From Pyropia yezoensis (lineage: Eukaryota; Rhodophyta; Bangiophyceae; Bangiales; Bangiaceae): a stretch of DNA of 64,000 nucleotides. Both the position numbers and the translations under genes were made by a program. Shown piece by piece: positions 9,567 through 57,500 of the stretch (the first letter of the stretch is position 1; each line of letters opens with the position of its first letter). The stretch covers positions 21,488,020 to 21,552,019 of the forward strand of contig CM020620.1 in assembly GCA_009829735.1 (NCBI GenBank), given 5' to 3'. The notes under the pieces are model-generated. The model made no database searches, was not told the origin of the DNA, and saw nothing but the letters and a program-made list of their open reading frames with translations.

Positions 9567-9597
<31 letters not shown>

Positions 9598-34227: not shown

Positions 34228-34249
34228 TTTGGTGGAGCAGCAGGGGACA
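34228..34249 (+). promoter_or_regulatory. Primer-binding site of element 1
   Basis: Immediately after the LTR, TTGGTGGAGCAGCAGGGGAC begins with TGG, as expected for the complement of a tRNA 3' CCA end. The same 20 bases follow the 5' LTR of element 2. The primer tRNA was not identified. Confidence 0.7.
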
Positions 34250-34346
34250 GAGGTAAACTTTACCTCCGGGTGCACCGGGGTGTAGGGGGCCCTCTTTCCG
34301 AGAGGAACGGTGGACTTGGACCGTGTCATACGGATCGTTAGCCAAC

Positions 34347-36295: not shown

Positions 36296-39200
36296 CCGTT
36301 GGAGCTGGCCGTCCTAAGCTCACAACGGCAGCCTCGGCCAAGTGGGTCAAGAGGACGAACCAACCCTGCCAGATACTGCGCCGACCTAAGGGAGTCTGCC
36401 CACCTCGGGTAGGGCTCCCCAAGAACGTAAACCCACGTCGGGTCATCGCGGTGCTGACGGGTAAGAACTTCTGGGTGGCCGGCCGGGTGCAACTAGCCCC
36501 CGGCCGTGCCTGCTGTGCCCGTATCGTACTTGATACCGGTTCAGGAGCCTATTTGATACGCAGGTCGCTGTTACCCAAGGAGATGAAGCTCAAACGCTGG
36601 AGGTCTAAGGCCGACCATATGATCGACATCAATGGTGGGGTACTTCCCATTGTTGGTGCCGTAACCCCACCAAATAGGTTGGGAACCCATGAGGTCGACG
36701 TGACCTATGGAGTAGTCGAGAATATATCGGTACCCCTGCTTCTGGGTACCCCTTATGCTGTAACACAAGTGCCTCTGATTGGTGGCCCGGAGTATTGGGT
36801 CAAGTTGATGAATGGGGAGACCATCCCCATCCTTGGCAAGGGAAAGTCTGTGGCTCCTGTGACAGTCTCACAGTCGAAGCCTGTTTGCTCCGTGAGAGAA
36901 GGGTTTACTGCTACCCTGCGTTTAGCCCGTAAGGTCACGTTGCCCCCCAACTCGGTGGCGCACGTTGACGTCGTAACTGATTATACGGGGAACGGGTTGG
37001 TGCACCCCAACCCCCGTCTTGCTCGCAAGCACCAAGTGCATGTTGCCCTTGGCACGATGGACTCCAAAGCCGGAGTCCCGTGGAGGGATCAGGTGATGAA
37101 CCTGAGCTCTTCGCCCAAGTACTTCAAGTCGGGAGCCAAGTTCGGCTATATCGACCAACATGAGGGGCCAGTAGTAGCGGTCACCCTCAACGCGGGCGCG
37201 AGTAGCGACCCGAAGTCCGGAAAGGAGAAGCACCAAGCCAAGCCGGCCGCCTCTCCTCGACCCATGTGAACTTGGAAAATGTTCCACCCAGGTTGAGGGT
37301 TCAAGTAGAACGCCTCTTGGACCAATGTCACAAGTTGTGGGATGGTCAATGGGGCCTCATGAGAGCCACCGAACACCGGATCGAGTTGAAACCCAGTGCA
37401 CCCCCTATACGTCAACAATTTTATAGAGGAGGACCCCGTTCAAGGGCCCTCGTGAAGGAGCAAGTCGCTCGCATGGAGGCCCTCGATGTGATTGAGCCCA
37501 GCAACGCCGAGTGGGCGAGTCCGGTGTTCATTGTCTCCAAATTTGATGGGACCCCACGGATCTGTATCGACTACCGGAAGCTCAACGAGAGCACGGTAAA
37601 GGATAGTTATCCTCTCCCTAGGATGGACGACTGTCTGGACTCACTGAGGGAGGCAAACGTGTTCTCTACCCTAGACTGTAACGCGGGGTATTGGCAAATT
37701 TCCATTGCCCCGGAAGACAGGCATAAAACTACCTTTACCTGTCACTGTGGTACCTACTAGTGCAAACGACTACCATTTGGACTGTGCAACGCGCCGGCAA
37801 CTTTCCAGCGCGCCATGGACATGATTCTGGCAGGAGTACGGTGGCAGATCTGCCTTGTGTACCTAGACGATATTATTGTGTTCTCCCGAAGTCCGGAGGA
37901 GCACATTGTCCATCTTGGTCAGGTGTTCAAGCTACTTGCTGACGCCGGGGTGTCACTGAAGGCGAGCAAGTGCCACCTCTTCACTCAGGAGGTGGAATAC
38001 TTGGGACATGTTGTCCGTCCGGGGCGCCTCAGTGTCAACGAGAAGAACTTGAGGGCCATCCGTAAGGCTCAGTACCCTTGGACCCAGACCCAGATGAGGA
38101 GCTTCCTCGGGGTGTGTAACGTGTACCGACGTTTCACCAAGGGCTTTTCCAAGGTGGCGAAGCTGCTGAATGAGCTAGTTAGCTCGACGCTACCGAAGAT
38201 CCTGCTTCCCCCAAGTCGGGTGGGGCAGGAATCCTTTGTGACTCTTCCGGATCTACTGCTGAAGCCCCCTATCTTGGCTATTCCCAGGTTGGGAGGCCAC
38301 TGCATCTTAGACGTGGATGCTAGCTACGACCAACTTGGTTGGGTGTTGCTTCAGCAGCAGCCGGACAAGGAGTACTTGCCGGCAGGATACTTCAGCAAGG
38401 GGTGAAATCGGCTGAGAAGAACTATGGAGTCACCGAGTTGGAAGGACTCGCAGTGGTGTGGGCGGTGACGTCACTTCGTCACTACCTAGAGGTTGAGAAT
38501 TTCCTCATCCGCTGTGACCACCGCGCGTTGCAGTTCATCTTTAAAACAGATTGCACGAACAGACGCCTCAACAGGTGGAGGGTGCGACTGGGACCCTTCA
38601 ACTTTGATATTGAGTACCGTCCCGGCAGGCAACATGCCCTAGCCGACGGCCTTTCTCGGGTACCTACCGAGGGGCTGGACACTAACTCAGTCGATGAGGA
38701 CATCCCCATCGGGGGGGTAGTCACGCGCTCGGGTCAGGCGTTGAACCCCGAGGCGCCAGGGAACAAGAAGTACTTGCCCCTGTCCCTGGACGAGGTGGTG
38801 AAGGCCCAGGCCGAGGATCCCTTCTGCAAGTCGCAGAGAAATACACTAGATACAGTGGCGGAGACGCGGTTCTTTCTCGGAGACGATGGCCTCCTCTTGA
38901 GTAGGGGGGTATTCCAGGGGACCGAACAACTTGTCGTCCCCGCATCCCTCAAGGACAGTATCCTTGAGAGGGAGCACAACGCTCCCACGGGTGGAAACCT
39001 GGGGTCTAGTAAACTGTACCAGACCCTGAGGACCAGGTACGACTGGCCGTCCATGGTGGTGGACATCTACAGTTGGGTGGCTGCCTGCACAAGCTGTGCG
39101 CAGAACCGTCTGATGGAACGGCGGCCTACTACGGCTATTTTAGTGTTCCCGGCCAAGGAGCCCTTCGCCGCGTTGGCAATGGACATCCTTAAGCCCCTGG

Positions 39201-39959
39201 CAGTGACCGAGGATGGCAACCAGTACCTCCTGGTCATCTGCGATCGCTTCACGAAAACTACGCGAGCGATCCCTCTGGCAGAGATCACGGCCATGTCGGT
39301 CGTGTCAGCCTTCCTAGATCACTGGTTTGCCGCGTATGGCATCCCGGACAGTACACTGTCGGACAATGGACCGCAGTTTGCGTCCGTACTGTTTCAGGGA
39401 GTGCTGGATAAGTTGGGGGTTCAGGCAAACTATGCCACCCCCTACCACCCATAAACTAATGGGCAGGTGGAGCGCTTCAACAAAACTATTGTTCGACAGC
39501 TGCGCCACTATGTGAGTGAGCACGTGAAGACGTGGGACCAATACATTTCTATTCTTACGATCGCCTACAATTCGCAGGTTCACTCATCTACCGGGGAAGT
39601 ACCCCTCGCTTTTGTGACCCCTCGTCGCGTGCGGTCTATTGCCGTACGGCGGCCGCTCCCAACTAGGGAGGCCAATGACGGTACCCCTACTCCCACTGAG
39701 AGTAAGGTGGAGTTCGCTGCTAGACTCGAAATACTCATCCGTAAAGTCAGGGCTGAGATGGACAAAGCGCAAAAGCGCTGCAAGCGTACTTTCGACATGA
39801 AGGTGCGCAACGCCAAGCACGTCCCCGAGCAGGATGACTGGGTGCTGGATCACTCACTCACCCCAACTGGGGGTAAGTTGGTGTTCCAGACGAATGGGCC
39901 ATACCAGGTCCTTCGTACGGGTGGACGGCTGTTTACCATCGAAAGTGACTATGAGGTCC

Positions 39960-40322
39960 TGTAGCAATATGGTTGGCCGTATTGTGACCCTAATGTTAGG
40001 GGGGCTACTTCTAATCCTTGGCTTTCAATTTGAGAGTCCGTACTGGTCACGGTATCTACAAGTTACGTATGACCAGAGGGACTTGCATCTTGGGGTGGAG
40101 GGTAGTTAGTAGTGTCCCCGAGGGTTTATAACGAGGGGGCCGGCGGCGAATCCACCGCCGGCCAAGGCAGAACAACAAACCCCTCCCATTTGGGCTCCCA
40201 TCTTGGTCCCGTGGCTTGTGCTCCAAGGACAGCAACCTTGGCCTCCCGGTGACGTTGGTGCCGATCCCCCTTGGTGAGTGTTCCCTGAGAGTGGACGTGC
40301 GACGGATTCCTATTGTGCTACA
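39960..40322 (+). repeat. 5' LTR of element 2
   Basis: 363 bp. TTTATAA at about 40125-40131 is TATA-like. A 9-bp hairpin GGCCGGCGG / CCGCCGGCC (40138-40163) follows, probably in the transcribed leader. Confidence 0.92.
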
Positions 40323-40342
40323 TTGGTGGAGCAGCAGGGGAC
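40323..40342 (+). promoter_or_regulatory. Primer-binding site of element 2
   Basis: TTGGTGGAGCAGCAGGGGAC directly abuts the LTR and is identical to the site in element 1. Confidence 0.75.
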
Positions 40343-40547
40343 GGGTTTCCGTCACCCTTGTGGTGACGCCGTCTTCGGCCCTGGCACACGGATAGGGATC
40401 CGGTCCTTTTCTTGTACTCGTGGTGTTGCGACCTGATCGATTGTGTTGAGTCTTTACCTTTGACGGTGATCTACTGTTACTCTCCCCAATCTACCCCCTC
40501 GCTCTCTTATTCGTGGTGATTGTTACGTCGGTTGACTGATTGTGACT

Positions 40548-42978
40548 ATGGCTACCCAAGAGACGGGGAACGTTCAAGATGACGGATCGACGTCGACGCC
40601 GACCCCGGAGGTGACTACGGGAACCGGGATCGGGAACCCGATCGACAACATTGAGACGCCAATGCTTTCCGGTGCCGGATCGACGTTTGGCACGGCTCGG
40701 ACGGCAGGAGGCGGGGGTCCGCCTCAACTGCCATCGACCGACCTCACTCCGCCGCCTCCTTCACCAGGGGATTCCCTGATGGCATCATTGGCCCGCATCG
40801 AGGCCCGGTTTTCCGGGCTCGACGCCCGTCAAGATCGGACGGAGGACGCAATGGCAGTGTTGATGTCAACACGCCACACGACGGGACCCCGACGTGTTCC
40901 TCCCACACCGGTACGGTTTGAACCGGCCGGACTACTTCCGGAGTCCACCAGGGTCAACCCTGGTGTTGCTACTCTTGGACAACCCCCGGACACAATGGGG
41001 TATGGATCCGACTCGTCGGCAGAGTTGGAACGGAGTCACACGGAGCGATACGCTCGGAGCACCCGAAGCGGACTCCGCGGACACGACCCGGCGGATACTT
41101 ACGCCGGTTGAGAGTCGGTTATTGGGGGAGGGGGTGCCCTCTCACAGTACCCCCACGACGAAGGAGGCCAGGCGACTCGGGTTTCGGAGGTGCCGACGCC
41201 TGAAGTACCATCTTCAGTGGTGGAAGCTATGACCGCGCAGGTCACTGCGAGCCTATTGAAGCGGATGGAGTCCGATGAGTTTGCTCACCAACTGGCTAAG
41301 CGACTGGATATCCAGGACGCTGACACGGAGATCGTCAACGAGGTCTTCCGGTCGGTTCTTACTCCGGAACGTTATCGTTTGGAGGACCGCTCTACCACCG
41401 TATCGGAATCGATGCGTAATACGTCGCACCGAGCGATTCGCTCTATGCAGACCCTTATGAAGGGAGTCCCTATGTTCGGAGGGCCGAACGGACGCCCGTT
41501 GGCAGTCATCGGCTTCTTGACTAGCTTCAAGGCAGCCGCGGACAATGCGCTCGTCAACGAGGGGCTGGCCCTGGAGATCCTCCCGTTCTTTGTTGATGAA
41601 CGGGTGCGAGGCATTCTTCGCCAGGCATCCCCGATGCCGGGAATGAGGGTCGCGGCCACCCCCATGGATTACCGTGGGATTCTCAAGGAGCTGCTGAGCA
41701 GTTACCTCAGTGAGGACAAGTGCGAGGACCACTACCGGGCCCTGCGCACTGCCACCGCCCAGAGCTGGGAGGATGAGGAGATGTTTGGACGCCGGATCCA
41801 AGAGCTCGACTACGAGCTGGGGAAGCTCCTCGGAGAAGGGGAGCTACGGGCCATCCTGTTCGCAGGAGTACCCAACTACGTGCGGATATCCGCACGGGGA
41901 GCCAATACGGCCCGGACGAACTTCAGTCGACTGATGCACATGTGCAAGTCCCTAGGGGACGCCTACCGGGTGTTACACCCGGAATGTACCTTGGCCCCGA
42001 AGCCCAAGGGTGAGGGAGGCAAACCCAGTCTTACCCCGGTACCGAGGCAAGAGAAGGTGGAACGTAAGGCCGCACCAGTACTGGTGGCGACCGAACATAC
42101 CCCTATTGGTGAGGATGAACCTCTAGTCGACCAACAGGGCCACCTGTTGCTACCGGCGACGCCGGTGATTGATGAACATGGTACGGTAGCGTACATCGCC
42201 CCGGCTGGAACCCAGTCCCAGGTCAACGAAGGAACGGGACGGCGCGTCCCGTATGTGCGGACTACGGGGTACTCCCCGGTGACGGGTAACCAGGCAAGAG
42301 AAGGTGGAACGTAAGGCCGCACCAGTACTGGTGGCGACCGAACATACCCCTACGGGCGAGGGTGAACCTCTAGTTGACCAACAGGGCCACCTGTTGCTAC
42401 CGGCGACGCCGGTGATTGATGAGCACGGTACGGTAGCGTACATTGCTCCGGCGGGGACCCAGTTCCAGGTCAGCGAGGGCACGGGACGTCGCGTCCCGTA
42501 CGTACGGACTACGGGGTACTCCCCGGTGACGGGTAACCCTCACCAACCCTTGCCAACATGGGCGGTGCGCACGGAGGCACCCCCGCAGATTGCGGGCCGA
42601 CCCAACCGGTTGGGGGAGTCCATGTTCCGGTTGACCCAAGGACCCAAGGCCTACCAGGGAGCAGGCACTCGGGCGCCTGAGGGAGGCAACCGCAGCTACG
42701 GGGCTACCCCGATGAGAACTCAAGGGGGGACCGGCACGTCCGGATGTATGTTGTGTGGGGATCCCCAGCACTGGGTGTCTTCCTGCCCACTCATCCCCGA
42801 GGAGTCTCGGCGGGCAGCGGCGCAACGCAAGGCATCCACCGGGGGGTATCCCGCCAGAGCACCCGGACCCGCACCGGGTAGGCAGCCAGCTCCAGGTGGA
42901 GTACTGGCCGTCGAGGAGGCACCTCCTCAGCCGGATGTCCCGGCGGACAGCACCCTACCAAGGGCGGGAAACGAGTAA
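40548..42978 (+). pseudogene. gag: Gag of element 2, with in-frame TGA and frame-shifting tandem duplication
   Basis: The frame starts at ATG 40548 (MATQETGNVQDDGSTSTPTP). An in-frame TGA at 41109-41111 interrupts it, and the same frame continues to about 42291. The capsid-like helical region includes LAVIGFLTSFKAAADNALVN and EGLALEIL. A 247-bp tandem duplication (42045-42291 / 42292-42538) shifts the frame by one. The downstream frame carries a CCHC zinc knuckle, CMLCGDPQHWVSSC (about 42747-42788), and ends at TAA 42976-42978, eight bases before the pol start. Gag would form the particle shell and bind RNA; as written, no full-length product can be made without readthrough and frame change. 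Confidence 0.8.
42045..42538 (+). repeat. 247-bp imperfect tandem duplication inside gag of element 2
   Basis: Both units start AGGCAAGAGAAGGTGGAACG and end GTGACGGGTAACC. They differ at a number of scattered positions (for example CCCCTATTGGTGAGGATG versus CCCCTACGGGCGAGGGTG). The unit length of 82 codons plus one base breaks the gag frame. Confidence 0.9.
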
Positions 42979-42986
42979 GAGGAAAG

Positions 42987-45900
42987 ATGACCGGGGGGCG
43001 CTGGGGTAACCCAAGCAAGCCACCTCGGAGTACCGCGGGGAAAGCCCCACGGAGAGCGCGGTTGAGCCGACGCCGCATCAACCCCCGGGTACACCTTCCG
43101 GCCCCGACGATACGGCGTCAGGGGATTGATGGCCAACCTCCAAGGTTGGGAGGAGAGGACGGGAAGCCCCGTCACATGGAACCAGACAAGGGCCCTGTTC
43201 AGGATGCCCGAGCTACACCGGATATCGGTGTAGGCCACGTACTGTTCAACTTGGAGAACTTCAAGGTATCAGCTACACTGGGGGTTGACCCCCAGTCGAC
43301 ACGATCGTACTACCCTGTACTGGATACAGGGGCTGGACCCAACCTTATCCGGAAGGACACCCTCCCGGACAAGTGGCTTCCGCGAGTCAGAGTGACTCGG
43401 GGACCCACCATCAAGGACGCGAATGGTCGCCTCATTCGTACGACCGCAGCGATGTCGCTGCGGGTTACCATCGGGGAACTCACCACGGAAGTCGACTTCC
43501 TGGTGTGTGAGACCCTATCGGTGCCCTGCATACTGGGATGCACCTTCATCAACGTTCACGTGGATGCAATCCGGCCGGGCCGGAGGACCGTCGAGCTGCA
43601 AGAGGCCGACGGGACGAAGCGAGGACATACGGCTATCGTCAGGGACCTGACGCTGCAAGGGAGCCACGTTAACGTGGCTGAGGTGTACGCAAGCGTCGAG
43701 CCGAAGACACTTCGGTTGGCCAAGCGAACTCGCTTTGAGCCGTTGTCGGAGACAGTCCTCCCGGTTAACTGCGACCTCGCAGGCATCTGCAGAGTCCGGT
43801 CCAACCTGCGGACGTACAAGCGCCATGGGTTGACCATGGCCAACGGTCTCATAGACCTCCCAGCAGGAGGGTCGTCCCTCCTCGTGATGGCGAACTATCG
43901 TCGTAAGGCAGTCACCCTCCCGAAGGGAACTATCCTGAGGACTGCCGAGCTCTACGAAGGAGATATCCTTACCCCTGACAAGAAAGGTCAAGTGGAACCA
44001 CTTGAGGTACTGGCGGTCGCCGAGACCACCGAGCGGCAGCAACCCGATGACGGGAAGCCTAACCCATCGGCGGCTCCGGCGGACATGCCACCAAAGGACC
44101 AAGCAGCCTTGAAGGCACTGGCCGAGGCTGACCTCGACCACCTTCCCCCTTCGGTAGCCGAAGGGGTACGACGAATGCTAAGAAAGCATGACGTCATGTG
44201 GACAGGCGGGGCCTTGGGTACCATTGGGGCAACCCAACATCGTATAGACCTGGTACCAGGCGCACGCCCCGCCCGGTCACAACCGCACCGAGCGGGACCT
44301 ATGCAACGAGAGATCGTTGATGGAAGAGTGAAGAGGATGAGCGAAGCGAAGGTGATACGACCTTCGATGTCGGAGTGGGGTGCCCCAGTCGTTATCGTAC
44401 CGAAGAAGGATCAAACCCCTCGGTTTTGCATCGATTATCGACGCCTCAACTTGGTTACCAAGAAAGACTCATACCCTTTACCAAGGATGGATGAATGCAT
44501 CGACTCCCTGGGAAAAGCTACGGTGTTTACCACCATCGATTGCAATGCCGGATACTGGCAGATCCCAGTGGCGGACGAGCATATCCCCAAGACGGCGTTC
44601 GTCTGTCACAGTGGAGTGTACGAGTTCCTAAGGATGCCCTTCGGATTGTCCAACGCCCCCGGTACATTCCAGCGGGCTATCGACATTATACTGTCGGGGG
44701 TGAAGTGGCGTAACTGCCTAGTGTACCTCGATGACGTTATCGTCTTCTCGCGTAACATGAATGACCATGTGCAACATGTGGACGAGGTACTCACCCTTTT
44801 GCGGAACGCCGGGGTAACCCTGCGTCTGAAGAAGTGCGCCTTCTTCCAACAGACGGTCGAGTATCTGGGCCACCAGATAACCCCTGGTAAACTAGGGGTA
44901 CTCGAAGCCAATACCCGGGCACTCCGGGATGCCCGGTTCCCTAACACCCAGACGCAGCTCAAGAGCTTCCTGGGAATGTGCAACGTATACCGACGGTTCG
45001 TCAAGGACTTCGCTCGGATAGCTAAACCGTTGACGGTTCTTACGAGCAGTACCTTACCCAAGGTACTCCAACCCCCTTCGCCTAGCGAAGAGGAGGCATT
45101 CGAGTCGCTGAAGCGAGCCCTACTGTCCCCACCCGTCCTTGCGTTACCGCATAGACGGGGGACCTTCGTCATCGATGTCGATGCGTGCGATACACAAGTG
45201 GGATGCACCCTGTTACAGGGGGAGACGTTGATCGGTTCCGATAACGTTATCCCGGACCTACGTCCGGTAGGGTACTTCAGCCGGACACTCAACCCGGCTG
45301 AGCGTAACTATAGTGCCACCGAGCGTGAGTGCCTCGGGGTTATATGGGCAGTGCAACTGCTCCGTCCATACCTGGAGGGCTCCAGGTTCATCTTGAGGTC
45401 CGACCACGAACCCCTACGATGGCTCCTCAGCCTTGGTGACAAGGATTCCGATAGCCATGGGAGGCTAGCCCGATGGAGGTTGAAGATGGTCGAGCACGAC
45501 TACCGCACCGTGTATGAGGCTGGGTCAACCCACCACCTCGGAGACGCGCTGTCTCGACTCGACACCCCGAGCGGGGATACCCGCCCGGTGGACGAGGACA
45601 TCCTGGTGGTACCGGTCTGCATGGTGGGTAACGCTACCCAAGGTATGGTTGACCATACCATGGCACACCGAGCATGCCCACTGACCCTCGCGGACTTCCG
45701 CGAGGCACAAGCCAATGACGACGACTGTAGACGCCACCGCGCTAACCTCCTGGCCGGCACGGCCGGCATCTTCTCGGAGAATGAAGACGGATTCATATGC
45801 CGGCGGGCACCCGCCGATGGTCGACATCAAGTCGTGGTTCCCGTGTCCTTACGGCAAGCCGTCATGGAACGAGAACACGAGAACCCTACAGCCGGACACC

Positions 45901-47153
45901 CGGGGGGTTCACGTATGTTCGCAGCAATGCGAAGGTTCTTCTACTGGCCAGCAATGGCTGTCGACGTGGTCGACCACGTAAGGGGATGCCACCCCTGTGC
46001 ACGTAACCGCATGAGCCTACATAGGCAGGCGTCTGCCATGAAACTGTTCCCACCGGATGGGCCCAACGAGCAGGTCGCTATCGACATACTCGGGCCACTT
46101 CCGGTAACGGAAGAAGGGAACAGGTACATCCTGGTCATGTCTGACCGATTCACTAAGCTGTCACGAGCGGCAGCCCTCCCGAATGATACGGCACATACCA
46201 TAATGAACGCAGTGGTTGACCACTGGATCAGTGCATACGGAGTCATGAAGCAACTACTCTCCGACAACGGAGCAAACCTTACGTCAGCATTCTGCACTAA
46301 GGTCCTGGGCATGTTCGGCATCGAACCACGTCGGGCATCCGACTACCACCCGCAAACCAACGGGCAGGTGGAGCGGTTCAACCGCACCATCGTTAAGATG
46401 CTACAGTGCTACGTGGCCGAGCACACGAACACGTGGGACAGGCTTCTGTCCGTACTCACCCTGGCATACAATGCCAGGCCACATCGGAGCACAAACATCG
46501 CCCCACTGGAGTGGGTCATGCCGATGGGCGTCGGTAACCTGACGCTGCCACCCGGCAGGTGCACTCGGTACGATACACCGAAAGGCCGACCGGCCGAACG
46601 GATCCACTTAGCTTGGTTGGCCAAGCTATCGTGGATGATACCGAAGCTCAAGGGTGCCCTTGACAGAACACAACTTCGATACAAGAAGAACTTCGACGCC
46701 CGACTACGGGTGCGCAACGCTACCCTGATGACAGGTGACTGGGTCTACATCAGACACCAGAAGTTCCGGGGGAACAAGCTCATGCAACCGGTCAAGGGAC
46801 CGTACCAGATCTTACACAGAGATGATCACTCTGTCATGCTGCTCTCCGATACGGAGATACAACGCATCAACATCAATGATGTGACACCTGCTCCGAAGCC
46901 GGAACAGCCTCAGCCGGTACCGGCCGGGTTGCTACATGAAGCTCTTACAACCCACCGATCAGATGACCCGGTGGGACCGGATGGGATTCCATACCAAGTA
47001 GAGAGCGTGGTCGGACACACCGACCCGGACCTACCAGGACCCTGGTACGTCAAGGTTATGTGGGTCGGATACGACTCACCCACCTGGGAACAGGCGGCGA
47101 ATATACCCCGCCAACTCCTCATGCCTTACATGAGGCGACGACGCCTACCGTAA
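42987..47153 (+). CDS. pol: Pol polyprotein of element 2 (protease-RT-RNase H-integrase-chromodomain), intact
   Basis: One uninterrupted 1388-aa ORF from ATG 42987. Aspartic protease LDTGAGPNLI is at about residue 112. RT shows FCIDYRRLNLVTKKDSYPLP, LRMPFGLSNAPGTFQRA and the active site YLDD at 580-583. RNase H includes FVIDVDACDTQVGC, NYSATERECLGVIWAV and RSDHEPLRWLL. Integrase has the HHCC zinc domain (HENPTAGHPGG, then CHPCARNR) and a D1033-D1093-E1129 triad with the classic 35-residue spacing (DILGPL, LSDNGANL, NGQVERFN). The C-terminus is chromodomain-like (YQVESVVGHTD, WYVKVMWVGYDSPTWEQ), which targets integration to marked chromatin in chromoviruses. All catalytic residues are present, so it may be enzymatically competent. 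Confidence 0.96.
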   Translation: MTGGRWGNPSKPPRSTAGKAPRRARLSRRRINPRVHLPAPTIRRQGIDGQPPRLGGEDGKPRHMEPDKGPVQDARATPDIGVGHVLFNLENFKVSATLGVDPQSTRSYYPVLDTGAGPNLIRKDTLPDKWLPRVRVTRGPTIKDANGRLIRTTAAMSLRVTIGELTTEVDFLVCETLSVPCILGCTFINVHVDAIRPGRRTVELQEADGTKRGHTAIVRDLTLQGSHVNVAEVYASVEPKTLRLAKRTRFEPLSETVLPVNCDLAGICRVRSNLRTYKRHGLTMANGLIDLPAGGSSLLVMANYRRKAVTLPKGTILRTAELYEGDILTPDKKGQVEPLEVLAVAETTERQQPDDGKPNPSAAPADMPPKDQAALKALAEADLDHLPPSVAEGVRRMLRKHDVMWTGGALGTIGATQHRIDLVPGARPARSQPHRAGPMQREIVDGRVKRMSEAKVIRPSMSEWGAPVVIVPKKDQTPRFCIDYRRLNLVTKKDSYPLPRMDECIDSLGKATVFTTIDCNAGYWQIPVADEHIPKTAFVCHSGVYEFLRMPFGLSNAPGTFQRAIDIILSGVKWRNCLVYLDDVIVFSRNMNDHVQHVDEVLTLLRNAGVTLRLKKCAFFQQTVEYLGHQITPGKLGVLEANTRALRDARFPNTQTQLKSFLGMCNVYRRFVKDFARIAKPLTVLTSSTLPKVLQPPSPSEEEAFESLKRALLSPPVLALPHRRGTFVIDVDACDTQVGCTLLQGETLIGSDNVIPDLRPVGYFSRTLNPAERNYSATERECLGVIWAVQLLRPYLEGSRFILRSDHEPLRWLLSLGDKDSDSHGRLARWRLKMVEHDYRTVYEAGSTHHLGDALSRLDTPSGDTRPVDEDILVVPVCMVGNATQGMVDHTMAHRACPLTLADFREAQANDDDCRRHRANLLAGTAGIFSENEDGFICRRAPADGRHQVVVPVSLRQAVMEREHENPTAGHPGGSRMFAAMRRFFYWPAMAVDVVDHVRGCHPCARNRMSLHRQASAMKLFPPDGPNEQVAIDILGPLPVTEEGNRYILVMSDRFTKLSRAAALPNDTAHTIMNAVVDHWISAYGVMKQLLSDNGANLTSAFCTKVLGMFGIEPRRASDYHPQTNGQVERFNRTIVKMLQCYVAEHTNTWDRLLSVLTLAYNARPHRSTNIAPLEWVMPMGVGNLTLPPGRCTRYDTPKGRPAERIHLAWLAKLSWMIPKLKGALDRTQLRYKKNFDARLRVRNATLMTGDWVYIRHQKFRGNKLMQPVKGPYQILHRDDHSVMLLSDTEIQRININDVTPAPKPEQPQPVPAGLLHEALTTHRSDDPVGPDGIPYQVESVVGHTDPDLPGPWYVKVMWVGYDSPTWEQAANIPRQLLMPYMRRRRLP

Positions 47154-47602
47154 CAACCCAACCGACACCGACTTCGGCTGTTGGGGGGTGAGGCTTATAC
47201 CTACTAAGTAGGGTGTCACATGGACTCGGCAAGACTTAGGTTCACTAAGTTGGAGCGGACTTCCGCAAACTAAGTAAGCTACTGACTCTTACAAGTTTAC
47301 TTGAAGGAGATGACTAACTCCGATAATCTCAAAGTAACCTAAGGCTTACACCAAGGTAACCCTTCAGCCAGGAGGCAAGTGACGGACCAAGAAGGTTGAC
47401 CTTCATGAGTATTAACCAACCAGGATGGGTTGGGGGAGGCGGGAAAGAACCGCGGCAAGCCACGACTAAGTCAGACGGGGTACTCCCCAATGGCAGGCAT
47501 GGTATCATGCAAACGCCCCAGCGGGGGATGAGTTTATACTCACTACTACCCGGCCACCATAAGGGTTACCGGGGCCCTCTCCCTCGCAAACAATAGCCCT
47601 CC
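47154..47602. other. Spacer between pol and antisense ORF in element 2
   Basis: 449 bp with several ACTAAGT-like motifs between 47,200 and 47,300. It is the shared 3' end of two convergent frames. No coding sequence is recognised. Confidence 0.5.
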
Positions 47603-49906
47603 TCAGTCGGTAGACCCACTGCCCGAAGGAGGCCACTCACGCATAAGCGCGTATACCTCCGTGCTCCACCGGTCGGCAATCTCACGACGGTCAATCACCC
47701 GAGTTACCTCGGTGCATAGCTGAACGAGGGTGCTGCGGCCAGCCTCCACGTCCTCCAGAGCTCTCTGGAGGCGGTCAAGCACGCCACCGAAGCAACGCGC
47801 TGGCCCAACCAGCGCAGCACCTCGGGGGATATCCCCCCAGCTAACAGAGAGACCCTCCCGCATTGCGCGGGCAACAAGGGCGTCAACGCCCTCATACCAG
47901 AGACGGGGACTCCCGTCTTGTATGACAGGGGCGGGAGGGGACACTGGCGCAGCCAGAGGAGCCAGAGGAGCCGACACGGCCACCACCGGAGCCGGTGGCG
48001 CCTGATATGAGGCCCGGTAGGACCCCACCGAAGGGGCTCCACCGTAACCCCGGCGGGGCTCCGCCCGACGACGGGACACCTCACGCTCCCCACCCGCAGA
48101 GCCCCACTCTCGGGGACGACGGCCAACCGCCGCCGGTATCGGGTTACAGAACCACGGGGCAAGGACCTGAAGAGGGTCATGGATAACCATGGGAATACCC
48201 AAGTCAGCAACAGCCTCGGTGGACGCCCACCCATGGCAACAAGGCTCACCCGGCTGAGTGCGCCGGATACGCAACGAGTGACGAGGCAAGGGGGAAGCCC
48301 CAGCCTGCAGATCCCGGTACGGGGGACGGGACAACACCCCGGCCCAGTTCACGGCATCGTGAACAGCCAGCAGGGCCTCGAACTTCCGGGCCAACCCGGT
48401 CTTGGCGGCTATCAGGTCCACGCCCAACTGCGCGATGTGCCGACGGACACCCGTCGGAAGATGAAACAGGCGCCCCTGCCGGCGGACGGACAGCAAGGAG
48501 GAAGCCTGCCCGAGGGTAACCTCAAGGGTGAAGGTACCCTGCAACGGGTGGACCGGTCGGGAGGCCAACACACTCCCGACGTATCGGAGACAGGAGCCGG
48601 TGTCAAACCGGAAAGCAGGGGCGGGTTCCCACCCCTCCTGCCATAGCGGCGGGCGCACGGGAGTGTATACCGGCGCACGACCGTTGCCGGTCTGCAACGC
48701 ACACGTTATATCGGTGCGGAACGCATCCGCCATGACACCATGGTTACGTCGCCAGCTCGACGCCGACTTCAAACCCGCCATAGGCGGGTAGGGAGCCGTC
48801 AACGACAGATACGGGGATACCCCCGGGTAATAACCGAAGTCGGGATACCGACCGGTATCGCCCACCGTCTCCCCAAACGCAACCGGCTCCGCCGCCGCCG
48901 CAATCCCCCGTGCACTAGCCGGGTAGTCAACCTCCCGCGGCAACGCGGGGGCAATCAGGTCGCATACCCCGAAGGCGGGGTCGAGGTAGACCTCACCCCG
49001 TCCCACCCGGGTGCGCCAGAGCTGCGCATGCCGGTCGTCCGGCTGACTCAGGATCCAATGGTGTTCCACCCGCACCGCGTTCGGCTGGTTGACCAGCCGC
49101 ACTAACTCCCGCTCCCAACTCGGGTCCACCTTGACGCGCCGGGAGGACTCTCCACGGGGATGGGGCAGGTGGAAGTCCACCCGTATCCGCCCATCGGACT
49201 CCATTGACTCTTGCACAGTCAGGCCGCGAACCCGAGCCACCAAGTCGGACATCGACATGGCGGGTTGACCCGCCGCCACGGCGACGCCGCCACCCAACGG
49301 GGCAACCCGGGCAGGACCAGGAAGAATCGGGGGCGCCGGGGGAAGCCCCACCGGCAGATGGACCGGTGCCGGAGGTGCACGGGGCCGAGGAGGAAGAAGA
49401 AGGGCGGGCGCCCGCCCGGAGTAACTACCGGAGTCCACTGCCATCGGTGTAGACCCACCTTGACCACCAGACGCCCGCGGCACCGCGGGCAGAGCAACGC
49501 CGCCACCCGAGCCCGACGGGGGCACCTCGGGGGCAGCAGGGGTAGACCCGTGACCCGCAGCCGCGGATGAACCACCCGGGCGGGCACCCGCGCCGTCTTG
49601 ACCCGCCGTCCCGGTCGGGGTGCCACCATAACCGCCCGACACGCCGGCAACGCCGTCTTGAGGTTGAGCCGCGCCGGCACCGGCGACAGGAGCCATCCGG
49701 GCCGCCGGAGGAGTAGGGGTAGACGCAGCAGCTACCCGCGGTTGCCCGCCACCCGACGGAGCCGTCGTGCCGCTGCACACGGACGACAAACCGCCCGGAG
49801 CACCGTCCGGAGCCACGCGAACGGTCACCCGGTCGCCCTCGTCTTCGGACGAGCTCGCCAAGAAACACTCGGCGGCGGTGGCAGAGACGGGAACGTCGTC
49901 CACCAT
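47603..49906 (-). CDS. Antisense ORF of element 2, unknown protein (767 aa)
   Basis: A long uninterrupted ORF on the strand opposite to gag and pol, between pol and the 3' LTR. The start is ATG 49906 (MVDDVPVSATAAECFLASSS). The first about 220 residues are acidic, then Pro/Gly/Ala-rich and probably disordered. A more ordered region follows (MSDLVARVRGLTVQESMESD; RVKVDPSWERELVRLVN). A helical block near 48345-48590 includes CLRYVGSVLASRPVH, FTLEVTLG, SVRRQGRLFHLPTGVRRHIA and QLGVDLIAA. It matches a block in the antisense ORF of element 1. I recognise no known domain. Integrity over 2.3 kb, while gag is broken, suggests coding relevance or recent arrival. Confidence 0.7.
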   Translation of the reverse strand: MVDDVPVSATAAECFLASSSEDEGDRVTVRVAPDGAPGGLSSVCSGTTAPSGGGQPRVAAASTPTPPAARMAPVAGAGAAQPQDGVAGVSGGYGGTPTGTAGQDGAGARPGGSSAAAGHGSTPAAPEVPPSGSGGGVALPAVPRASGGQGGSTPMAVDSGSYSGRAPALLLPPRPRAPPAPVHLPVGLPPAPPILPGPARVAPLGGGVAVAAGQPAMSMSDLVARVRGLTVQESMESDGRIRVDFHLPHPRGESSRRVKVDPSWERELVRLVNQPNAVRVEHHWILSQPDDRHAQLWRTRVGRGEVYLDPAFGVCDLIAPALPREVDYPASARGIAAAAEPVAFGETVGDTGRYPDFGYYPGVSPYLSLTAPYPPMAGLKSASSWRRNHGVMADAFRTDITCALQTGNGRAPVYTPVRPPLWQEGWEPAPAFRFDTGSCLRYVGSVLASRPVHPLQGTFTLEVTLGQASSLLSVRRQGRLFHLPTGVRRHIAQLGVDLIAAKTGLARKFEALLAVHDAVNWAGVLSRPPYRDLQAGASPLPRHSLRIRRTQPGEPCCHGWASTEAVADLGIPMVIHDPLQVLAPWFCNPIPAAVGRRPREWGSAGGEREVSRRRAEPRRGYGGAPSVGSYRASYQAPPAPVVAVSAPLAPLAAPVSPPAPVIQDGSPRLWYEGVDALVARAMREGLSVSWGDIPRGAALVGPARCFGGVLDRLQRALEDVEAGRSTLVQLCTEVTRVIDRREIADRWSTEVYALMREWPPSGSGSTD

Positions 49907-50553
49907 CACCTCCTCCTCCTCCTCAAGCAGGAGGTCGTCCTCGCCTCCGGGTACCTAGGGGTCCGACATGATGACCGGGGTAGCAGGGGCGCCCCGTGCA
50001 GAAAAGCCGAGGCCGGCTCGACCCGGTACAAGGAACGCTCGCGCAGGACGAGCCAGGGAAGCGCGGGCACCCGCGCTTATAACCACACAGTTCAGCACGA
50101 GCGATACGGCAGCGCGGGACGACCCGCGCCAGCCGAGCTACGGGGGCGCTCCACCCAGGCACCTGGACCGGAGCCACGCCCCCTCCACACGGGGTAACCA
50201 GGGGGGTCACCCCCAACCGCCCCCACGCAACGCGGGCAACCCCGCCACCCACTCAATCGTCTCACGAGAGGGGCTCCCCTACCACCAGACACCTGGTGGC
50301 GGATCCGCTTGCCCACCCCTCGGAAAGGGGGGTCGTGAACAGACACCCGCATCGGGAATTTAACGGTCCGGAAAACGGATCGTGTGTGTACCACACAAAG
50401 GGGGGCACCCCCCTCAGGCAACCTCGAAAAGGGGTGTCTGTCGCGACGGGGCGCAAAGCCCCACCCGACTGGTAAACGGTCACGCGACCCACTTACATTC
50501 GGTAACCAGAATGCAACTCGACCCGAGGACGGGCCGAATCTAAGGGGGGGATA
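49907..50553. other. Region between antisense ORF start and 3' LTR, with polypurine tract
   Basis: About 650 bp with no supported gene. It would be the upstream (promoter) region of the antisense ORF. The plus-strand polypurine tract AAGGGGGGG (50542-50550) sits 3 bases before the 3' LTR and would prime plus-strand DNA synthesis. Confidence 0.6.
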
Positions 50554-50916
50554 TGTAGCAATATGGTTGGCCGTTTTGTGACCCTAATGTTAGGGGGGCT
50601 ACTTCTAATCCTTGGCTTTCAATTTGAGAGTCCGTACTGGTCACGGTATCTACAAGTTACGTATGACCAGAGGGACTTGCATCTTGGGGTGGAGGGTAGT
50701 TAGTAGTGTCTCCGAGGGTTTATAACGAGGGGGCCGGCGGCGAATCCACCGCCGGCCAAGGCAGAACAACAAACCCCTCCCATTTGGGCTCCCATCTTGG
50801 TCCCGTGGCTTGTGCTCCAAGGACAGCAACGTTGGCCTCCCGGTGACGTTGGTGCCGATCCCCCTTGGTGAGTGTTCCCTGAGAGTGGACGTGCGACGGA
50901 TTCCTATTGTGCTACA
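50554..50916 (+). repeat. 3' LTR of element 2
   Basis: 363 bp, differing from the 5' LTR at three positions by eye (near 50576, 50710 and 50830). GGTCC follows directly. Confidence 0.93.
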
Positions 50917-51301
50917 GGTCCGCACAGTAAACGGACAGGACGTGGTAAGCGTTGCACCACCTCCTGCAGGCGACCCGGCCTGGGCGCGTGCGCTGAAAAC
51001 GTGGCGCCTGCCTTCGCTACCTGCGGCCAAACAGTGCCCGCAGGAGTACGTGTTCGATAAGATCATCGACCGCGGGTGGGATGAGGACAGTAACCGCCTC
51101 ATTTTCAGGGTGCGTTGGTTCGGCTATAAGGCTAAGGATGATACGTGGGAATACGTGGACGACCTTCCCGCTGAGAATGTCCGGGCATACTGCGCCCGGA
51201 ATGATATTGACCCTAACTGCCCTCCCTCAACGTGAGGAAAGGCCAAGTGACGGTGCCAAGAGAGTGCGTCAAGTCGAAGTGGTACGCAGAGTGGCTCTTA
51301 C

Positions 51302-53764
51302 CTACAGCCCTAACCCACACACTCTCACATCAAAGGCAGCTGCCAACGAGGCACGCATGCTAGACTCCCCAACACCATGGCCCTTGCCCTCACATGGAGG
51401 CGAGCGGCAAGACCCACGCCGAAAACGTTCCCCACACGTCGGCGGGGGCGGCGGCTCCAAGTCAAAACCGTCGCGCCCATCACGGTCGCGCAAGTGGCGA
51501 CGACCGCGGCTACTCTTCTGCTTGGTCGTGCGCGCCAGTTGGCGACGCAGACGCCGGACCGACTCCGTCTCCGATGGGGTAGAGGACTCCGAGACGGAAT
51601 AAGACAGCTCGTTTTCCGACACGGAGGGAGATCGCCGCAAGTGACGGCGACGACGGCGAGGAGGCGAGTATGCCCGGATTGCCCGACGCTTGCCGCGCCC
51701 AAGTGGGGCGGGCTGGGGCACAATCGACCCAATACGAGCCAACTCGGTCGTCATGAACCCCGCTACCGACTCGCAACTCGCGGTCGCCACAACAGTACGA
51801 ACGCGCTCCTCAAGTTGAGGAGTCTCGGAAACTTGAAGGGTTGCAGCCGACGCGGCCAACCAAGAAATGGTGCGCACCAACATGGTGATCATCATCTCGG
51901 AGGTCAAGGGCGTGGCCGGCAGTACCAACTTGGGATAGACCGCGAGGGGGGTGGCCCCCAACTTGGGGGACATTGGAGTGGACGACTCAACGGCAACGCC
52001 TATCGGGATGTCCCCGTGCGGCTGGAAAGGGACAGGAGGAAGCGGAGGGGCTCGCCGAGTAGGCGGAGCCAAAGAGTAACTGCGACCCCTACTCGGGGCC
52101 CCCGCAGTGGGTTGAGTCACATAGCCATCGTGGGAGGGCACGGTTACCACGATTGCCTTGTCCGGGGGAGGCGCAGTGTGGCGTTCCACCCCCGGGGCAT
52201 ACGGGTAGTCCCCGATGCCCAGCCCCTCCTGGAGTACCACACGGCCGTCGTGAAGCTCACGACCGACCCAGACGAACTGTCGAAGTGTGCCATCGTCCTT
52301 GGGCCCGTGGGAGGATCGGCGCAACTTGTGCTCGATGCTCTCCCTCTCGATGAGCTTGTGGAGACGCAGCATCTCCTCGAGTAGAGTGAGCTGGCCCGAT
52401 GAGCACCCCTCAGCAACTAGCTGAGGGGTGAGCTGCTCCAAACCTTGGATAAGCCGGGGGGATACATGCCTGAGCATCTCCCGCCGCTGGACACAAAACA
52501 CCCAGGTCGACATGACCTCCAGGAGCCACTGGGTTGCCAACATGGCGAACACCAGGTGGTCCGGGCTAGCCGTCAACATGACGGAGCCGAAGTGGTCGAG
52601 CAACCGTGGTAGTAGCGCCAGAAACCCGTAGGGGACCTCGACTTGAGGCCACCACTCGGGCTTCTTGGGATAGTACTGCTCTTTGCTAGCAGGTGACTGC
52701 TGCGGAAACTCGAGTTGAGCCGAGGTCACCAAGTAGGGACCTCGCCGGTAGTCCTTCTCCATCCGCACATCAAAGTGATGAGTGTGCGGATAGACGTCGC
52801 GAAGGTACGGGGGGCGAGTTGCCACCGCGTCCCAAGTGAAGGTTGGCACGTCGCCAGTGCCCGAGATAGTACCCCCGCGGTCCTCCATGGCCTTTGCCCG
52901 CTGCACGTCTTCGACCTCGTCCTCATCCAGGTAGGCAATCTGGTCCGTCCTGAAGTCGGGAGGAGACCCGACCCTACCGGGGAACTTCTCCCGTAGGCGG
53001 TCCCATACGCGACTCATCGCTGTGCCAAGTCGGCCACAGCGGAGAACCGTCAACCCCTCCTCATACAGTGTGGCAGTATTGACCCCCAGGTAGGGGGGCA
53101 ACACGTGCCATGCAAGGGGCGGCAGGCCACTAGCCTGATCCGTTCCTCCCCCTGCATTTGGGTCCATATTCCCTAAGTTTGGGATAGTTAGCTTAGTAGT
53201 AAATCCAACTTGGATTTGAGGGTTTTCTGCATTTATCGTCTTGAATTTTTGTGTGGCCCAGTGGGCAGGTGCTGGGGTGGGAGATTCTGAGTGGCGAGAT
53301 TCTGAGTGGACCCTTGGGGGATAAGGGGAGGGACAGCGGGGCTTGGCCCTGCGTCCCCGTCCCGACCAAGAAACTGTTGGACCACACACCATCCTCTTGT
53401 TTGTCCGTGGGGGGTTTGCCCCACAACAGGGACAGAGTGTGTGCGACTTGCACTTCTTCCGGTTCCCCCGACACGGGAGGCAGCCCTAGCACACCGCCCC
53501 AACTTGGGTGCCGTGTGTGCTAGTGGTTTTTGCCACATACAGAGGCCAAGCGGGGTAAATCCACCGCCCCAAGGCCTCCCGTGGAACAGCACGGCCCGCG
53601 TCCGGGGGAGATCTCGCCGCCAACCCAAAGCCGGGTGGCGCGGGCATCCCATCGCCCGGAGCAACCGCGGAGCCCCCGCCGGAAGTCCCGGCGGGCGCTG
53701 CATCGTAGGACATATCCTCCATACGATCGTCGAAGGAGTCAGTCTCCACCCCCGGGGTCACCAT
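51302..53764 (-). pseudogene. Antisense ORF of element 1, unknown protein (about 662 aa), split by a solo LTR
   Basis: The frame opens at ATG 53764 (MVTPGVETDSFDDRMEDMSY), is cut at 53543 by a solo LTR, and resumes at 53068 (EEGLTVLRCGRLG), ending at 51302, 66 nt beyond the pol stop. Removing 53069-53542 (474 nt, exactly 158 codons) gives one continuous frame. The inserted LTR adds an in-frame TAG. The ordered centre has helices (PYGFLALLPRLLDHFGSVML; RREMLRHVSPRLIQGLEQLT). The C-terminal third is Arg/Ser-rich (GKRRAIRAYSPPRRRRRHLR) and may be nuclear-targeted or bind nucleic acid. No known domain is recognised. It lies opposite to gag-pol, in the same place as the antisense ORF of element 2. 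Confidence 0.7.
53069..53537 (+). mobile_element. Solo LTR of the element 1 family, nested in element 1
   Basis: 469 bp, TGTGGCAG to TGCCACA, flanked by exact 5-bp repeats TACAG (53064-53068 and 53538-53542). No internal sequence is present, so it is a recombined solo LTR. It is less similar to the LTRs at 33757 and 54100 than those are to each other, so it came from a different copy. Confidence 0.92.
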
Positions 53765-54099
53765 GGCTCTCCCCAAGTTAGGGAGAGACGACCTGGTTGC
53801 AGTTGCATGAGACCCACCTCAAGTTGAGGGGGGCTCGGATCGCGGGTAGATGGGTGGCCTCCCCAGCGTGGGGCGGCCCAGGGTAAGGTGACGGGGATGT
53901 CTTGGTGGTGGTGAGGTGAGTACCGATAAGAGCAAGCTGTCAAGTGAGCAATCTTGAGGAGAGGGGCGGTCGACGTGGCCGCCTCCACGTCCACGTCACG
54001 TACCAGGGGGACAGCAAGTCGCGCCCCCAACGCCGCGATGTGCGATTCTACACCCCATCGCAGGGCCGACCGGGTCGGTCGGAACTGAGGAGAAAGGAG

Positions 54100-54570
54100 C
54101 GTGGCAGTATTGACCCCCAGGTAGGGGGGCAACACGTGCCATGCAAGGGGCGGCAGGCCACTAGCCTGACCCGTTCGTCCCCCTTCATTTGGGTCCATAT
54201 TCCCTAAGTTTGGGATAGTTAGCTTAGTTGTAAATCCAACGTGGATTTGAGGGTTTTCTGCATCTTATCGTCTTGAATTTTCGTGTGGCCCAGTGGGCAG
54301 GTGCTGGGGTGGGAGATTCTGAGTGGCGAGATTCTGAGGGGACCCTGGGGGGGATAGGGGGAGGGACAGCGGGGCTTGGCCTCGCTTCCCCGTCCCGACC
54401 AAGAAACTGTTGGCCCACACACCATCTTCTTGTTTGTCAGTGGGGGGATCGCCCCACAACAGGGACAGTGTATGTGCGACTTGCACTTCTTCCGGTTCTC
54501 CCAACAAGGGAGGCAGCCCTTGCGCACCGCCCCAACTTGGGTATCGCGTGTGCGAGTGGTTTTTGCCGCA
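54100..54570 (+). repeat. 3' LTR of element 1
   Basis: 471 bp, closely matching the LTR at 33757. The terminal bases have mutated (CGTGGCAG instead of TGTGGCAG, and TGCCGCA instead of TGCCACA). The purine-rich GAGGAGAAAGGAG just before it is the likely polypurine tract. Confidence 0.9.
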
Positions 54571-57500
54571 GTTGGCTTAACTTCGAGAAACAAGCAGCTG
54601 GCGGACCTGGAGTCTTTCCTTCACCCATTGGCCGATCGTGGTATAAACTCGATTCGCTTCAGACACGTGTCAGTATCCCTTGGGGGAAAGGGACATGAAA
54701 GACAAAGAGGGGAATTACGAGATTGGTATGCCTGTTGCCTCACGGGCCTGTCGGCAGGGCCGACAGATACGCACGGTAGTACACGCGGGGAAGAGGAAAG
54801 CAAACACGCAGTTGTCACTTCCTGAGGGCGCGGGCTATGGGCGCCTCGCTGTCCCTCTTCACGTGCGTCTGGGAGGAGCCCCGGCACGTTGGCCCAGTAG
54901 CCCCCCTCCTAGCCCTGAGTGGTCCCGACCCGAGTCTAACCTCGCCAGGTCAGGGGCCACTATATCTACTAATTCTATTCTCCCTCTTTAATCTCACACT
55001 CAATTACCTCAAATCAAGTCCCTCACAGGTATGCAAAAACCCTTCAGGAGTCCCTCACTCACGTGTGGGTAGCGTAGTCCATCGCATCCCAGTGCTGGGC
55101 ACGGGCCACGGCGGCCAACCACCCTCACACGGCAGGTGTGTTCTGGCACCTGGTGTCCATTGGTCACAATCCGGGGTTGGCGCCAAGTCAGGGCCAGGGA
55201 TGCTACACCGAGAAGCTGAATACTTTGACAACTGGGGATCCAGGCGTCGAGGCTGCGGGTACCGCGGGAGAGCACACGCTACGGGGTTACACGCTACACG
55301 GATGCACCGAAATGCCAGGTGGCGACGAGCTCATAAACTCGACTGGACACAACGGACACCAGCCCAATCGTTGCCAGACCTGTGGAAGGTGGACTACAAG
55401 TCGCACACGTCCTACACCCCTGTGAAGCCAAGGTCCGGGGAGATGCTACTCGCTGTGCAAAGGTGCACAGCTCCCAGGCGCAGCGCCACTTTTTTTGCGA
55501 GCCAGGTCCACGATGTCGAGTCCGCTCGACTTGCCGGCAAGCCTCACACTCGCATCATGGAGTTCAGCTCGTCGTGCTGCAAGCGCTACTCCCTCTGTAG
55601 CTCGCCCAGCGCTGAGCAGCGACTCAAGTATCCTGAGTTGACGTACCTGTGGGACGGTGGCCCTGCTGTCAAGCCCGAGGACTGCATGCGTTTTTTGATA
55701 CTGAACTTCACGCCGCTGCTGTGGCTGGTCTTGCCTGGTCAAATTGGCGGCAACAGTGACGAGCCCAGGGACATGAAAATGACCCCCGCCGCTGTAGCGG
55801 AGATCGGGTGCGAGCTGCTAGACGCACGGGCTACTGTGCCTTGCTCGCAGGCACGGCCGCTGCGGAACTTTGCGGTCTTTTTCCGGTCCTACAAAGCCGT
55901 AGACTGTATGGTGCTATTACCATCGACAGCGTAGGTTGTCTTGGCTGTCTACATCGCCCAGGCGATATGCTCATGCACCTGTTTGGTGGTTGTAGACTGC
56001 TGTTTCGCCCGCGTCCTCTGTCGATGGAGGAGTTGAGCGCCGCGGAAGCAGGGCTGACACGTTCTTGCCCAGACGACCACGCGCTGGTGTACCGCAGCGA
56101 GGAGACCAGGCTGCCCTTCTGTCAGTCGACGATTGCCGCATTGCTGAAAATCTTCCCAAACATCCGCAGCTGCGGGCCTATCTGGACCCTTTGGCAAAGA
56201 AGCGGCTCATCGGCACGTTGCCAAGGCTTGTCCGATCAGGATCGAGTCCTTGTCCCAGTCTCGTCGAGTCGTTTTCGCGCAAGTATCAAGCGGAGCTGAT
56301 TACTGCTGTTGACAAAACGCTTCTCCCTGAACCTTTGTCACCGGCCATTGGGAAGCTTCGACATTCCGAGAAGTCGGCAGAGGAAACGTTTCCCATGCTT
56401 GGTGGATCTGACGTCGTAGTCTTGCCACCGCATCAGAAGGCCGCCTTTCGTCTTGGGGCGGAAGTCGCCGCATTGCACGCTGTACTGGCGGTTGTGGCCA
56501 GACCGGAACCGCACTGAGAGCTATGTATGCAAGGGGAGGGTTCAAGCACCGACCCGGAGCAGCACTGCCTTGTCAAAGGCAAGTTCACGATGCAAACTGG
56601 GATACGTTTAGACCTGCCGAGCATGGCAGTGGGTCGGCGGACCGCCGGTGGACATCCAAATGCCGCTGCCGGTCGGTACCGCCAATCCACCGACACGATC
56701 GATCCGACTGGATCGACCTGTCGTAAGAACAATCGAAAATCCCTCCAAAGCGACAAATGCATACGAAAAAAGAGATCAGCGCCCCCCGAAAGGGCTTGCC
56801 ACAATTCACGGGAAATCCCGTAAATAGTCATTGGAGGCACTCGGCCGGGCGATTGCCTCGCTGTCCTCCTTCGGGGGACAGCGAGGTGCGCGTGTGTGGG
56901 GTCTCGCCTTGACGCTCTGCTCCATCACGCCCGACCAATCAGTGTGCGGGGACGCCCCGCCCCCGGCCGGGGCACAACCACAGCTGGGCCATGCCCTCTC
57001 CTTAGCACCTGGGGCAAGCATTGATGGGACCGTGTCGGTGAGGGATGCCAGGCGCCCCTCCCACGACGCTCCCCCCGACACTGGCCCAGGCGCCCGTCAG
57101 GGAGCGGTGTCGGGGGTCATGCCACAGCCGTCGCGGGCTTCGATGCCGTGCCTGGACCCGTGCGCGCCGTTAAGTATGGCCAGGTGCGCCTGGACACTGA
57201 AGTGGTGGCTGGCGCCCATGCTGCGGCCTCAGACGACCACTCGACGAGGCCGCGCAGCAGTTTTGTTTGTATGCGGTCAACCGACCGCGTCGAGACGGAT
57301 TCTGGTGGCGTGGAAGAGGTGAGCGTCCACACGTACGTGCTTGTCTTGCATTACGTGTATGTTTTCGAGGGCGGGTCTCCACCTGCGCTTGCCTGCTTGT
57401 CCTTGCCAAGTGTGCTCGCACTGGGCGTGAACGACTCGGGAAGTATGGCACTCCAGGTACGCGCTTTGGGCTCCCTTGCTGTGGAGCATTCAGGAGGCAA

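Follow-up and report, generated by a model that had tools for sequence, protein, structure and literature searches.

What are the two long reading frames that run on the strand opposite gag-pol, in the interval from pol to the 3' LTR, in a pair of nested Ty3 elements of the red alga Pyropia yezoensis: chance openings in GC-rich DNA, or genes of the elements, and if genes, are they related and what could they do? The window, by which we mean the whole 64,000-nucleotide stretch that was analysed (contig CM020620.1, here C3, positions 21,488,020 to 21,552,019), comes from a genome of 107.5 Mb in 11 contigs and contains one copy of each frame, named ORF1 in the outer element 1 and ORF2 in the inner element 2.

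Two nested elements with convergent pol and antisense frames

The features on which the argument rests are the following.

33758..54575, plus strand: element 1, Ty3, measured between its two LTR matches and broken up by element 2 and a solo LTR
39960..50916, plus strand: element 2, from LTR to LTR, nested in element 1, with the duplication GGTCC
42987..47153, plus strand: element-2 pol, with protease, RT, RNase H and integrase plus a weak chromodomain; pol and ORF2 are convergent
47606..49906, minus strand: ORF2, the antisense frame in element 2, 767 codons when counted from the first ATG
49955..49969, minus strand: start of ORF2 in its relatives (MSDPQ...); in the window copy, codon 5 here is a stop
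49970..50553, minus strand: candidate region for an antisense promoter, from the start of ORF2 to the 3' LTR, proposed from position only
50927..51235, plus strand: last part of pol in element 1, including the chromodomain (28.2 bits); pol and ORF1 are convergent
51305..53068, minus strand: main part of ORF1, the antisense frame in element 1, with 588 codons up to the window stop; relatives stop at codon 574
53069..53537, strand unassigned: solo LTR of the element-1 family, splitting ORF1, with the duplication TACAG at 53064-53068 and 53538-53542
53543..53764, minus strand: N-terminal part of ORF1, 74 codons, ATG at 53764, upstream of the solo LTR

The LTR matches of element 1 (33758-34232 and 54101-54575) differ at 13 of 475 positions and the LTRs of element 2 (39960-40322 and 50554-50916), which the GGTCC duplication flanks, at 3 of 363. 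The original prediction had assigned the antisense proteins to a chromodomain element, and this description fits element 1, whose match to Pfam PF00385 (28.2 bits) exceeds the cut-off of 25.1, better than element 2, whose match is weak (14.0 bits); the corresponding scores at loci L044 (21.0 bits) and L042 (12.3 bits) also fall below the cut-off.

Elsewhere in the window, a 247-bp direct tandem duplication, 92% alike, lies near the gag-pol junction of element 2 (42038-42531); an extra inverted copy of the element-1 LTR (31749-32119, 89% complementary to 33857-34227) sits just outside element 1; and a very GC-rich stretch (8723-13553, GC 0.835 at 10001-12000) has, on each of its strands, open frames of 600-936 codons that overlap.

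Natural boundaries of the antisense frames

Both antisense frames exist as predicted, and comparison with relatives revises the limits of each. ORF2 consists of a P/A/G-rich N-terminus, a core at about residues 217-587 that is its conserved part, a basic linker and a helical-looking C-terminus. Among the 20 copies compared, which were the top 20 by score of 59 scored matches, 18 could be read at the start, and 16 of these begin with M(S/W)DPQ (MSDPQ in 15, MWDPQ in one), the other two, the window copy and L018, having a stop there. Upstream of this motif the translations diverge between copies as if frame-shifted, and downstream of it the reading frame is kept. Because the window copy is stopped at codon 5 of its relatives' frame, its 767 codons begin at a later ATG; the predicted ORF is thus present from that ATG, and the relatives start further upstream. 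From the window ATG onward 14 of the 20 copies are free of stops and six contain them, and the sole internal indel measures 3 bp.

For ORF1, the N-terminal part beyond the solo LTR matches the N-termini of the relatives L010-L016 and of the protein P0007. A stop 574 codons past the LTR site is shared by all seven relatives fetched (L010-L016) and is missing from the window copy, so that the predicted length of 662 codons overstates the natural one. Further stops occur in five of these seven, which like the ORF2 copies were chosen by score, and L012 and L013 are otherwise free of stops across the 588 codons. Both window copies are therefore imperfect representatives, ORF2 by its codon-5 stop and ORF1 by its solo LTR and the loss of the common stop.

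Copy number, layout and relatives

The genome contains at least 59 scored copies of ORF2 and at least 74 of ORF1, and a P. vietnamensis query gave at least 67 matches; only the best 59-74 candidates were scored in each search, so that a single-copy host relative could be hidden beneath them. Forty-four of the best 59 ORF2 copies are stop-free. ORF2 as a whole falls into at least three types, A (the type of the window, 93-98% identical among the best 59), B (L038-L040, 83-89%) and C (L037 and L041, 64-67%). The A copies converge with pol in 18 of 20 cases, the exceptions (L027, L031) having the LTR of another element where pol is expected, and an LTR lies at the expected distance in all 20; the same convergent arrangement of pol, antisense ORF and LTR recurs at one B locus, one C locus and one recent ORF1 locus. 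At L044, which represents a recently amplified ORF1 subfamily, the antisense ORF has 40 scored DNA matches, itself included, all of which round to 100% identity over 2,172 bp, and we conclude that elements with this gene amplified recently.

Beyond this genome, relatives of ORF2 occur in the bangialean red alga Pyropia vietnamensis at 42-53% identity and account for six of the 11 proteins that the profile search found. The search with ORF1 found one outside protein (85% identical) and none assigned to another named species, and conservation between species is consequently a statement about ORF2 only. Three of the P. vietnamensis protein models (P0005, P0006, P0009) are without inner segments of a fourth (P0003), with a join at VSAFLL in P0006 and P0009; the missing segments may reflect either true splicing or artefacts of the models.

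Several copies are grouped in ways of their own. Three ORF2 copies on contig C1 (23856879, 23867632, 23878385) are spaced exactly 10,753 bp apart, like tandem whole elements sharing LTRs. Beside a type-C locus, L045 has at 1201-1701 a second, inverted stretch that is 90% like window 47275-47776, which places ORF2-bearing elements side by side there. At L047 (C2:9882900-9887100) a tandem array has a 3,489-bp unit of LTR and antisense ORF region, without gag or pol, with matches at C2:9880067, 9883556, 9887045 and 9890534. We considered whether this unit is a non-autonomous mini-element that keeps only the antisense gene and rejected the idea: the stretch after its LTR differs from that after the window's 5' LTR, and the junction of LTR and ORF is spanned by four of 40 scored matches, all within the array, so that a local tandem duplication is more likely.

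Purifying selection on both frames

The antisense strand at 47154-50553 contains a stop-free run of 783 codons, the longest there, compared with at most 448 codons in 1000 Markov-1 resamplings, and the 588 open codons at 51305-53068, a stretch that was picked because it is open, compare with at most 539 in as many resamplings. Across the 20 ORF2 copies a Nei-Gojobori count gives dS 0.0605 and dN 0.0208, a ratio of 0.344; the complementary sense frame gives 0.414 and the remaining four frames 1.29-1.48. For pol the ratio is 0.197, from the 12 of the 20 copies with a full-length match. ORF1 yields 0.383, and its complementary frame 0.451, across eight copies (the window and L010-L016). The low values of the complementary frame in both families are explained by the third positions that it shares with the ORF frame.

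For ORF1 against its L044 relative, dN/dS is 0.220 (bootstrap 0.167-0.286), and the ORF2 core gives 0.20-0.27 between subfamilies, with 0.200 (0.099-0.357) for A and B and 0.252 (0.182-0.344) for A and C. Outside the core, constraint between A and B is weak, at 0.598 (0.403-0.925) for residues 103-216 and 0.759 (0.367-2.112) for the C-terminus. When changes are sorted by codon position, those common to two or more ORF2 copies number 35/30/80 and those private to one copy 79/75/108, distributions that differ (p 0.025), as would be expected if private changes mostly represent decay after insertion; for ORF1 the shared and private counts are 30/25/72 and 74/62/104 (p 0.051). Purifying selection across copies, one of the checks that the original prediction had named, is thus present in both families.

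One protein family in two element families

We compared a profile of 11 ORF2-family sequences with one of nine ORF1-family sequences and obtained a match over 182 columns at 24% identity (probability 87.8, E 3.3e-6, score 55.0). Shuffling the columns of the ORF1 profile 200 times produced scores of at most 24.6, and reversed profiles scored 24.2 and 24.5. Further matches between ORF2 and ORF1 came from hhalign (E 5.6e-5, probability 66) and BLASTP (E 0.001). The shared block joins residues 335-525 of ORF2 to residues 55-246 of ORF1, numbered from the LTR site; the block of about 20 residues first noticed in the sequence is real and forms part of a considerably longer one. We also considered kinship with the gag or pol of the same elements and rejected it, as pieces of these score at most 20.6 against either ORF family. 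The profile match and the purifying selection together bear out the prediction that two distinct Ty3 families share a homologous antisense protein that has been conserved, and we hold with high confidence that ORF1 and ORF2 are genes of one homologous protein family.

Features of the proteins

Pfam scans of ORF1, ORF2 and their relatives found no known domain. Two candidates were set aside, DUF6214 (best E 0.014, in two of 12 ORF2-family members) and RGS12_usC (E 0.11, in one of 12), both below the cut-off and over the low-complexity linker. The best matches to solved structures (E 0.26 for ORF2, 0.64 for ORF1) are not convincing, two structure predictions of ORF2 gave no usable fold (mean pLDDT 29.7 and 31.4), and two peptide patterns each, which make for weak negatives, found no viral or prokaryotic relatives in IMG/VR or GTDB contigs.

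ORF1 has a strongly basic, SR-like tail with the motif RRRRR and a net charge of +12 in residues 421-480, through which binding of nucleic acid by ORF1 is plausible and which could also bring the protein into the nucleus; ORF2 has a milder basic linker and, by the patterns used, no clear nuclear signal. The highest mean hydropathy over 19 residues among the five products scanned is 1.42, and no transmembrane segment is evident; the customary limit for such a segment is a mean of 1.6. This maximum and the antisense orientation speak against the envelope-like product that had been among the suggested roles.

Exchange of the ORF2 body between elements

The ORF2 types differ from one another in a manner that we did not expect. 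Comparing pol from one locus and the ORF from two loci per type, we find that A and C have an integrase dS of 0.247 (0.191-0.316) and a dS of 0.768 (0.636-0.895) over ORF2 residues 216-764. Between A and B, the core dS of 0.131 resembles that of integrase (0.171), and residues 103-216 reach 0.339. Sliding windows show type B to be mixed: over residues ~69-166 it is 87-91% identical to C and 63-69% to A, from about residue 167 to the stop 91-97% to A and 66-85% to C, and beyond the stop again 93-98% to C and 73% to A. These dS contrasts and the mixed identities of B lead us to conclude that the ORF body moved between element backbones by recombination; in the loci compared, it has passed as a cassette from one element to another that is closely related.

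A bolder reading of the exchange, which we regard as improbable, is that the protein serves as an interchangeable mark of identity, a factor that would act only on the RNA or DNA of elements of its own type. Such a factor would explain why A and C differ by a dS of 0.77 in ORF2 and 0.25 in integrase, and why in type B the core is A-like, with an N-terminus and a 3' flank that resemble those of C. If it were true, the factor could serve copy-number control, the exclusion of rivals or the withholding of help from cheats, and recombination that swaps the ORF body would make new compatibility types.

Discussion

Our findings, taken as a whole, are best explained, with somewhat better than even confidence on our part, by an antisense accessory gene of bangialean Ty3 elements with a nuclear regulatory role. 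Under this explanation the gene would be transcribed from a promoter of its own, situated in the few hundred bases that separate the 3' LTR from the ATG; its protein would enter the nucleus, bind nucleic acid through its basic stretches, which are clearest in the ORF1 tail, and act in trans on its own family, tuning expression or integration. That the protein is a nuclear regulator is the more tentative step, one we rate below an even chance; we place it ahead of other roles because of the basic tail of ORF1, the lack of an evident transmembrane segment and the precedent of Grande gene23, which, according to the review PMC7264820, is nuclear and has a separate promoter.

Among the alternatives, a structural or packaging product encoded on the antisense strand, including an envelope-like factor, is unlikely: envelope genes do sit between pol and the 3' LTR, and ORF2 has long parts that are P/A/G-rich or look helical, but the hydropathy maximum of 1.42, the lack of a gag match and an antisense mode of expression that is unusual for a particle protein argue against it. 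Slightly less probable still is that the working product is an antisense RNA, the protein being secondary, which would pair with the genomic RNA and feed small-RNA silencing or restrain translation. The layout would make the antisense mRNA complementary over its full length to the genomic RNA, in the 3' part of the latter, and such a role is raised for plant elements in the review PMC7264820, but pairing needs conservation of neither amino acids nor reading frame; the two roles could also coexist. We give an equally low chance to a host gene captured by the elements, a source compatible with the failure of two peptide patterns each to find viral or prokaryotic relatives, although the copies with flanking sequence in view lie within elements, with the LTR at its expected distance in 20 of 20. 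We consider it very improbable that the protein belongs, in divergent form, to the plant family of Retand TRP28 proteins, which shares place and orientation with the red-algal genes in the account of Retand elements in PMC11963269, but whose domain PF04195 was matched in Pfam scans by neither ORF1 nor ORF2 nor any of 12 ORF2-family members; a search for TRP28 in the Pyropia genome also gave no match, but its controls were equally silent. Chance open frames without a product, a reading that the GC-richness of the region (0.684 at 48001-50000) and the 448 and 539 codons reached by same-composition shuffles might invite, are refuted to our satisfaction by dN/dS values well below 1 in both families, and stand equally at odds with the start-codon boundary and the homology between families and between species.

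The preferred reading, an accessory gene with a regulatory product, can be set beside systems already described. In plants, antisense ORFs placed after pol and before the 3' LTR form an established class, and the fungal element Boty is also reported to have one (PMC7264820; PMC11963269); plant Ty3 examples of this class, termed aORF-3R, include maize Grande gene23, rice RIRE2, Silene Retand and PvRetro13 (PMC7264820), and algal elements and the aORF term are treated more generally in PMC12477816, PMC2864245 and PMC8220671. The red-algal frames lie antisense to pol and before the 3' LTR in the window, in the A copies and at the B, C and recent ORF1 loci, and they are conserved like other element proteins, ORF2 at 0.344 compared with 0.197 for pol and ORF1 at 0.383 or 0.220. 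They further resemble the plant genes, as reviewed in PMC7264820, in their many copies and in having no known function. They differ in their host, which belongs to another kingdom-level lineage, and in proteins for which no sequence match to the plant ones was found. Retand is moreover described as a non-chromovirus, whereas of the red-algal elements element 1 has a clear chromodomain and element 2 a weak match to one. The resemblance to Retand TRP28 extends to the DNA-binding regulatory role suggested for that protein (PMC11963269) and ends at PF04195. Boty brtn of Botrytis is likened here by its description as an additional antisense gene of a non-plant Ty3 element (PMC7264820; PMC8365987), and HTLV HBZ and APH-2, antisense-coded nuclear regulators of a retroelement (PMC11963269), offer an analogy only.

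In titles and the beginnings of abstracts, from literature mostly outside subscription journals, we found no earlier report of an antisense gene in a red-algal Ty3 element. The novelty claimed in the original prediction is to be narrowed: the protein family and the red-algal host appear new, and the class of gene was already known from Grande, Retand and Boty. A single 107-Mb genome contains two homologous families that have diverged widely, several subfamilies, cassettes swapped in nature and recent copies, by the dozen, that are almost identical, and the function of such a gene becomes testable by comparing them. The red-algal proteins appear to be the same kind of gene as those of plants, with a protein family of their own in a new host group, and if this family is, as it seems, unrelated to theirs, Ty3 elements would have acquired a gene at this site on more than one occasion, a sign of some general need that they have.
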